DNA of 15,760 nucleotides from Candidatus Schekmanbacteria bacterium RIFCSPLOWO2_02_FULL_38_14. Lineage in GTDB: Bacteria > Schekmanbacteria > GWA2-38-11. The position numbers and the translations under genes were made by a program. This document shows positions 14,205 through 15,460 of the stretch, piece after piece. Every line of letters begins with the position of its first letter. Position 1 is the stretch's first letter. The notes beneath the pieces are model-generated. The model saw nothing but the letters and a program-made list of their open reading frames with translations. It ran no database searches and was not told where the DNA came from. The stretch spans positions 1 through 15,760 of the forward strand of contig MGDH01000030.1 in assembly GCA_001790855.1 (NCBI GenBank), given 5' to 3'.

Positions 14205-14738
14205 TCAAGTTATTTTTTCCACCTGTAAAAACTCAAACTCAACAGGAGTTGATCTTCCAAAGATTGATACCATTACTTTTATCTTCTCCTTCTCCATATT
14301 TGCCTCTTCTACAACTCCTGAAAAACTTTCAAAAGGACCATCAACTACCCTGACTGCCTCACCTTTAGTAAATCTGTCTTTAAGCTTGGATTTGCTCGTT
14401 CCTGTAACAGACTGGTTTAAGATTTTATCTATCTCATCATTCCTTAACGGACTCGGGTTTTTTGAGCCTCCAAGAAACCCGGTAACCTTTGGTATGTTTT
14501 TAATGATATGCCATGTTTCATCATCCATCTCCATCTCTACAAGCACATATCCGGGAAAGAATTTTCTTGAAGTAGTAACTCTAACCCCTTTTCTTAAATT
14601 GGTCACATTTTCAGAAGGGACCAGCACTCTTGAAACCTTATCCAGAAGAGTCTGTTTCTTTATAAGCTCCTCAATAGCTAATTTGACCTTATTTTCATAA
14701 CCTGAATAGGCATGTACCACATACCATTTTTTTGCCAT
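14205..14738 (-). CDS. nusG: Transcription termination/antitermination factor NusG
   Basis: NusG binds the RNA polymerase clamp, increases processivity and links polymerase to Rho or to ribosomal protein S10. The 177 residues are near the family norm (E. coli 181). The N-terminal NGN domain begins [16 protein letters not shown] and has [14 protein letters not shown] and VTGFLGG. The C-terminal KOW domain is [19 protein letters not shown] and following. No extra domain is inserted. The ATG at 14738 follows AAAGG at about nine bases. It sits 66 bases after the secE stop, the standard secE-nusG-rplK arrangement. The polymerase clamp it meets here carries an additional zinc-finger insert in RpoC, which could alter that contact (inference). 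Confidence 0.98.
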
Positions 14739-14804
14739 TTTCTGTTACCTTTAAAAAATCAGTTTTTATAATTTACTTCACCGGATTTTCCGTAGCTGCT
14801 GCAT

Positions 14805-15290
14805 TTACAGGTTCTTTTGCTTCAGAACCGTAATCCTTCTTAATACTGTGTCATTTGAACCAAATGAATCCTTTACATTCAGTTTAACTGTATAAACACC
14901 ATGTTTTGAAAACTTATGCGTGGCACTTTTTATCTTTGCATATCCGCTGCTTGGATAATCCCATATACCATCATTATCAAAATCCCACCTCACCATAAGC
15001 AGCGAAACATCGTCTTCTTTATCATAGGAATTGGTTGCATTAAATGTAAAAGTTGTATTTATATCCCCTGAGGCAGGAGTTATTTCAAATGATGCTTTTG
15101 GAGCGGAATTAAGAATCCTTTTGACACTATTTGAAAGCACAATATCTACAATGCCAAGATAAAAAGCAACTACCAGTACAACAATAATCACAACTTTGGT
15201 AGAATCAGTTGTCTCTGGCCTGGTGGGCCAGCTTACTTTTTTTAATTCAACCTTTACTTCCTTGAAAAATTCCTTTAACTTTTTCCACAT
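14805..15290 (-). CDS. secE: Preprotein translocase subunit SecE fused to a C-terminal PKD domain
   Basis: SecE clamps and stabilises SecY in the protein-export channel. Residues 1-60 are a complete minimal SecE. An amphipathic N-terminal helix (MWKKLKEFFKEVKVELKKVS) leads to the signature VSWPTRPET, then one membrane segment (about 33-53). Ordinary SecE of this type ends near here. This one continues to 161 residues with a PKD-type beta-sandwich (about 62-156): APKASFEITP, RWDFDNDGIWD (the PKD W-D-F motif, with a D-x-D-x-D-G calcium-loop pattern at 103-111), THKFSKHGVYTVKLNVKDSFG and a final RRITV strand. With standard SecE topology the domain lies outside the membrane. I chose the ATG at 15290, six bases after AGG. 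A TTG two codons earlier abuts the Shine-Dalgarno. The first part is certain; the fusion is read directly in one frame. Confidence 0.95.
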   Translation of the reverse strand: MWKKLKEFFKEVKVELKKVSWPTRPETTDSTKVVIIVVLVVAFYLGIVDIVLSNSVKRILNSAPKASFEITPASGDINTTFTFNATNSYDKEDDVSLLMVRWDFDNDGIWDYPSSGYAKIKSATHKFSKHGVYTVKLNVKDSFGSNDTVLRRITVLKQKNL

Positions 15291-15378
15291 ATCCAACCTA
15301 CTTTAACCTGAAAGCCTTAATAAATATCCTGCAGGCTTCCATATATGTTTTTTTATTCAAACTGTCTAACAATCTTCA

Positions 15379-15452
15379 CAGGCCAGGAGGGATTTGAACC
15401 CCCAACACCCGGATTTGGAGTCCGGTGCTCTATCCGTTAGAGCTACTGGCCT
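15379..15452 (-). tRNA. trnW: tRNA-Trp (anticodon CCA)
   Basis: A full cloverleaf can be folded on the minus strand. The acceptor AGGCCAG pairs with CTGGCCT and is followed by discriminator G at 15379. The D stem is GCTC/GAGC. The anticodon stem CCGGA/TCCGG surrounds the loop CTCCAAA, with anticodon CCA at 15418..15416, and the T arm is GGGGG-TTCAAAT-CCCTC with one G-U pair. The anticodon reads UGG, so this is the tryptophan tRNA. The CCA tail is not encoded and must be added by nucleotidyltransferase. tRNA-Trp between rpmG and secE is a common conserved neighbour set, and here it must be cut out of a longer transcript. Confidence 0.97.
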
Positions 15453-15460
15453 ACTATAAC

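Follow-up and report, generated by a model that had tools for sequence, protein, structure and literature searches.

The SecYEG translocon is among the most conserved machines in cells, and SecE is a core part of this universal export channel. In single-helix SecE, the N-terminus lies in the cytoplasm and the C-terminus outside, and, to our knowledge, no SecYEG subunit has been described with a folded external domain such as that reported here. Ordinary single-helix SecE has been classed among the tail-anchored proteins (PMC3087755). On its own, SecYEG fails to bind BAM and has no periplasmic domains that are large enough; BAM is bound by the periplasmic parts of SecDF and YidC (PMC7695460; PMC8082313). 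In the holo-translocon (SecYEG-SecDF-YajC-YidC) with BAM, and likewise with PpiD/YfgM, periplasmic domains at SecYEG meet partners (PMC7695460, PMC8082313), but these domains are carried by accessory proteins that come and go, whereas the domain described below belongs to the core.

Three further systems were used for comparison. At the exit of Sec61, the Ig-like domains of TRAP-alpha, -beta and -delta form a cradle, and TRAP-alpha touches translocon loop 5/6 (PMC10279528). TssP, which belongs to an envelope-anchoring complex of a Bacteroidota type VI system, has a single membrane helix together with two periplasmic domains of PKD-like type (PMC10781749); it resembles the present protein in placing PKD-like periplasmic domains after a membrane helix in a secretion machine, but it is not a Sec component and its two domains were recognised by structure prediction. 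In the collagenases ColG and ColH, the PKD domain binds calcium through an Asn at the domain start together with the main-chain carbonyl that follows it, through both Asp of D-x-D, and through the Asp of V-x-D; the bound ion brings the N-terminal linker into line with the axis of the domain and increases stability (PMC4356367).

The window analysed here is the whole stretch of 15,760 nucleotides and belongs to a genome (G000) of 2.68 Mb in 43 contigs (99.4% complete). According to gene names assigned from the translations, its minus strand carries, in order, the start of tuf, rpmG, tRNA-Trp, a secE gene, nusG, rplK, rplA, rplJ, rplL, rpoB, rpoC, rpsL, rpsG and fusA, and the secE gene thus occupies its usual position (tuf-rpmG-tRNATrp-secE-nusG-rplK). 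The first-pass annotation had claimed that one open frame at this position joins SecE to a PKD domain, and a single uninterrupted frame at 14805-15290 does encode a complete one-helix SecE followed by a PKD domain. The relevant features are as follows.

15378 to 15453, minus strand: tRNA-Trp, directly upstream of secE, also found in the relative G003 (locus L002)
14805 to 15290, minus strand: secE-PKD gene, 160 codons from the ATG plus the stop codon, the sole SecE of G000
15114 to 15275, minus strand: SecE family domain, residues 6-59 (PF00584 and TIGR00964 above cut-off)
15132 to 15194, minus strand: single transmembrane helix by hydropathy, about residues 33-53, VVIIVVLVVAFYLGIVDIVLS
14829 to 15110, minus strand: PKD domain, residues 61-154, predicted periplasmic (PF18911 and PF00801 above cut-off; PKD chains are the top fold matches)
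14205 to 14738, minus strand: nusG, next after secE in the operon, with an orthologue at the same place in G003

The gene starts with the ATG at 15290 and ends with TAA (14805-14807); an alternative in-frame TTG lies two codons upstream of the ATG (15296), and residue numbers given here count from the ATG and would read 2 higher from the TTG. Curated profile thresholds were used as cut-offs for both domains. The SecE portion scored 71.4 bits with the Pfam SecE profile PF00584 (cut-off, 22.7; E, 5.9e-20) and 59.7 bits with TIGR00964 (cut-off, 27.55), and the PKD portion, for which the first-pass annotation had left open that no profile might match residues 62-156, scored 43 bits with PF18911 (PKD_4; cut-off, 27; E, 4.7e-11) and 36.4 bits with PF00801 (cut-off, 23.5). 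The SecE domain shows a cytoplasmic amphipathic helix, the VSWPTRPET loop and the membrane helix, with a hydropathy peak of 3.08 at residues 33-51. We regard the fusion as firmly established, and the function of the added domain is what we infer below.

No second SecE was found in the 99.4%-complete genome G000 by protein search or with PF00584, and a separate normal SecE elsewhere in this genome was accordingly rejected; the long form is therefore the one used by the cell. The SecE-borne domain is also the only PKD_4 domain found in G000 (one match), the corresponding numbers being one in the incomplete genome G001, three in G003 and 13 in G002. The genes secD and secF lie side by side in G000, and an Omp85 protein is also encoded, so that an outer membrane and a periplasm are very likely. 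Since the C-terminus of single-helix SecE lies outside, the PKD domain is predicted to be periplasmic and to project outside the inner membrane, in agreement with the extracytoplasmic side proposed in the first-pass annotation. About 100 residues would thus have to cross the membrane, and the fusion should therefore be unable to insert in the simple tail-anchored manner, which raises a question of biogenesis: how a domain of this size reaches the far side of the membrane, perhaps through Sec channels that are already in place.

The phylum is small and little studied, and is represented in the collection by four genomes. In G003, which belongs to another family of this phylum, the same fusion (180 aa) is situated between rpmG/tRNA-Trp and nusG-rplK-rplA as in the window, and both the SecE and the PKD profiles again exceed their cut-offs. 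The two remaining genomes, G001 and G002 (the latter rated 98% complete, in 20 contigs), gave no match for secE, nusG or rpoB; the whole secE region seems to be missing from these assemblies, and they cannot be used as tests of the fusion because all three genes are absent. An artefact, in which an assembly chimera or read-through would have joined secE to an unrelated fragment, is hardly credible. It could be argued from the window being a single 15.8 kb contig of a genome in 43 contigs and from an apparent frameshift at the 3' end of the gene, but an independent genome from a different family carries the same fusion, 56% identical overall, at the same operon position, which refutes an artefact for the SecE-PKD junction and confines doubt to the last few codons. 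In G003, the relative in which the locus is present, SecE does not end near residue 60 but continues into the PKD domain, and the chimera against which the first-pass annotation had cautioned is thereby disposed of.

The doubt concerning the last codons arises from the following feature.

14773 to 14835, minus strand: DYGSEAKEPVNAAATENPVK and a stop codon, read in another frame; probably what remains of the ancestral C-terminal tail, and similar to the tail of the G003 protein

This frame stops just before nusG, and the G003 protein, which ends in TETAKKENIVK, likewise stops just before nusG. Judged from this resemblance, the 3' end of secE-PKD in the window appears to be frameshifted relative to G003, and a flexible tail seems to have been lost from the window copy by a small insertion or deletion, either real or a sequence error. 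The last residues (about 156-160) and the absence of the tail in the window copy may accordingly not be ancestral. None of this affects the PKD domain, which is complete.

To place the fusion among other SecEs, 102 distinct SecEs from fetched loci, including suspiciously long frames, were collected, and the residues following the conserved helix were counted. In 98 of the 102, the helix is followed by 1-9 residues, and in the two fusions by 102 and 121. The known single-helix SecEs (Thermotoga maritima SecE, 3DIN chain D; the Bacillus type; L044 and L031) share with the fusion the cytoplasmic helix, the SWPTR loop, the membrane helix and the place in the operon, but stop only a few residues beyond the helix, whereas SecE-PKD has about 100 more. 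With 102-121 residues after the helix, the fusions do not end as short tail-anchored SecEs do; they belong to the SecE family without being tail-anchored, the short end being usual in the family and no defining rule. The SecEs of G221 (L082) and G079 (L083) have an additional hydrophobic segment of about 27 residues after the conserved helix, which would return the C-terminus to the cytoplasm. A folded C-terminal domain was found in two of the 102 SecEs, namely the two fusions. The sample is thin within phyla, and rare SecE fusions may exist elsewhere.

A profile of both fusions was also run over 386 genomes (about 257 families), with further surveys of the phyla of G110 (12 genomes) and G101 (seven), and no other protein spanning SecE and PKD was found among the matches listed, which for the 386 genomes were the best by E-value. 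A further candidate in G224 (C54), whose match started in the membrane region, proved to be a lipoprotein-like PKD protein, and no relative was found in scans of viral contigs. The closest PKD sequences among the matches listed were those of long multi-PKD proteins in another phylum, encoded by open frames of 1172 aa (L003, G101; about 44% identity) and 1244 aa (L142, G398); these proteins are a possible hint, from sequence likeness, to the donor family of the PKD domain of SecE. The first-pass annotation knew of no described SecE-PKD fusion, and our search of the open literature likewise found no earlier description. SecE-PKD is apparently an undescribed conserved domain fusion, a variant of SecE in a core essential machine.

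Among solved structures, the best match of the SecE part was T. maritima SecE (3DIN chain D), and the PKD part matched collagenase PKD domains and that of an endoglucanase. AlphaFold2, run without a deep alignment, gave low-confidence models (pLDDT 47 alone, and 53 with five rows, an alignment that was still shallow after viral PKD sequences had been added). The pLDDT 53 model contains strands at residues 65-70, 81-86, 97-103, 131-140 and 146-155, and with this model the first 12 Foldseek entries were all PKD-containing structures (best, ColH s2b; E, 2.9e-5); this outcome agrees with the profile result and is not independent proof of the geometry. The PKD domains of Clostridium ColG and ColH (4jgu, 4aqo, 4tn9) are matched in both sequence and fold, and share with the present domain the WDF core, the H-x-F and G-x-YTV-x-L-x-V-x-D motifs and the calcium-ligand positions. 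SecE-PKD differs from them in having Glu for the second D of D-x-D, in a longer WDFGDG turn (WDFDNDGIWDYPSSGY), and in being membrane-bound at the translocon, whereas the collagenase domains are secreted.

By profile alignment, the equivalents of the collagenase calcium ligands, which occur in part of the PKD family, are N61, D90, E92 and D141, encoded at the following positions.

15108 to 15110, minus strand: Asn61 codon, equivalent of the calcium-binding linker Asn of collagenase PKD, by alignment
15015 to 15023, minus strand: Asp90-Lys91-Glu92 codons, equivalent of the calcium-chelating D-x-D with Glu at the second position, by alignment
14868 to 14870, minus strand: Asp141 codon (LNVKDSFG), equivalent of the third acidic ligand, by alignment

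All four residues are invariant between the window and G003 fusions, and SecE-PKD is predicted to bind calcium through them. The first-pass annotation had instead placed possible calcium binding at the D-x-D-x-D-G loop (residues 103-108; D103-D105-D107-G108). This loop, whose second Asp is Glu in G003, aligns with the WDFGDG turn, which in solved PKD domains does not chelate this calcium; it was therefore rejected as the PKD calcium site, and a second, different calcium site there is conceivable. As N61 lies only some eight residues past the membrane helix, calcium, if bound, would stiffen precisely the point at which the domain joins the helix.

The constraint on the added domain was estimated by comparison of the two fusions. 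The SecE parts are 68% identical and the PKD parts 52%, as against 55% for NusG, 79% for RplK and 76% for RpmG of the same two genomes; the PKD part is thus conserved about as well as NusG and less well than the SecE part. In the PKD part, dN (0.53) is well below dS (2.56, saturated, so that the direction alone is meaningful), which indicates that amino-acid changes have been selected against and that the domain is constrained. These values bear on the reading in which the domain is a near-neutral appendage, captured once in an ancestor, tolerated since its folding takes place outside the membrane, and doing no more than stabilise SecE. Other SecEs examined work without a PKD domain, the fusion is seen in one phylum only, and the C-terminal tail has apparently already been lost by frameshift in the window genome, all of which would suit such an appendage; a useless domain, however, would be expected to decay or vanish since the two families parted, whereas core motifs and calcium ligands have been kept with dN far below dS. 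We consider this reading rather unlikely.

The reading we favour, to which we give an even chance of being correct, is that the PKD domain serves the core translocon as a periplasmic docking module, rigid and probably stabilised by calcium, and so helps hand exported proteins onward. The N-terminal 60 residues would do the ordinary job of SecE, with the amphipathic helix on the cytoplasmic face and a single tilted helix that clamps SecY from behind; since this essential part is unchanged, channel assembly should be ordinary. The PKD domain, once translocated, would stand in the periplasm as a permanent part of every SecYEG complex and would allow the core channel to keep hold of a partner there (SecDF, a chaperone, or Omp85/BAM parts), in this way helping to pass exported proteins onward. 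Both this role and its partner are what we infer from the retention of the fusion in two families, its place as the sole SecE and sole PKD_4 domain found in G000, the constraint on the PKD part, the kept ligand residues, and the presence of SecDF and Omp85. Precedents are the contacts of SecDF and YidC with BAM (PMC7695460; PMC8082313) and the PKD-like domains of TssP (PMC10781749). Against docking, SecDF already makes periplasmic contacts, so that the PKD domain is not needed as a replacement (with SecD and SecF both encoded, substitution for an absent SecDF was rejected); only two fusion sequences are known, with the PKD part less conserved than the SecE part; and the structure models are of low confidence.

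Next in preference, together with the tolerated appendage, stands a chaperone at the exit site, in which the PKD domain would lean over the pore, touch the emerging polypeptide and limit back-sliding or misfolding. The TRAP subunits offer a precedent, and an analogy only, in placing Ig-like beta-sandwiches on the side where polypeptides leave the Sec channel (PMC10279528), and a beta-sandwich of about 95 residues would adjoin SecY in every complex. TRAP, however, consists of separate proteins whose several domains form the cradle, which the one domain fused to a core subunit here cannot do alone, and the SecE helix lies at the back of SecY; a direct chaperone role is thus improbable. Attachment to the envelope, in which the domain would bind peptidoglycan, lipopolysaccharide or another surface polymer and fix the sites of translocons, is very unlikely, the domain being short and single. 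PKD domains are nevertheless common in surface and polymer-binding proteins, and the nearest PKD sequences among the matches listed belong to long multi-PKD proteins of other phyla, both of which would fit such an anchor.

A further proposal, that this built-in periplasmic domain acts at the channel exit, by TRAP-like contact with substrates or by handover to the outer-membrane machinery, on every SecYEG and in a calcium-stiffened form, is put forward tentatively and is somewhat more doubtful than docking itself. The core SecYEG of bacteria has been described without a periplasmic domain large enough to meet partners, and accessory proteins are credited with such contacts (PMC7695460, PMC8082313). 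That a core subunit bears a PKD domain in two families means that the core translocon can be extended. SecE-PKD provides a minimal natural system for the role of a domain at the channel exit, in which the domain can be deleted without touching the essential part, and it opens the question of how exported proteins are met on leaving the channel.
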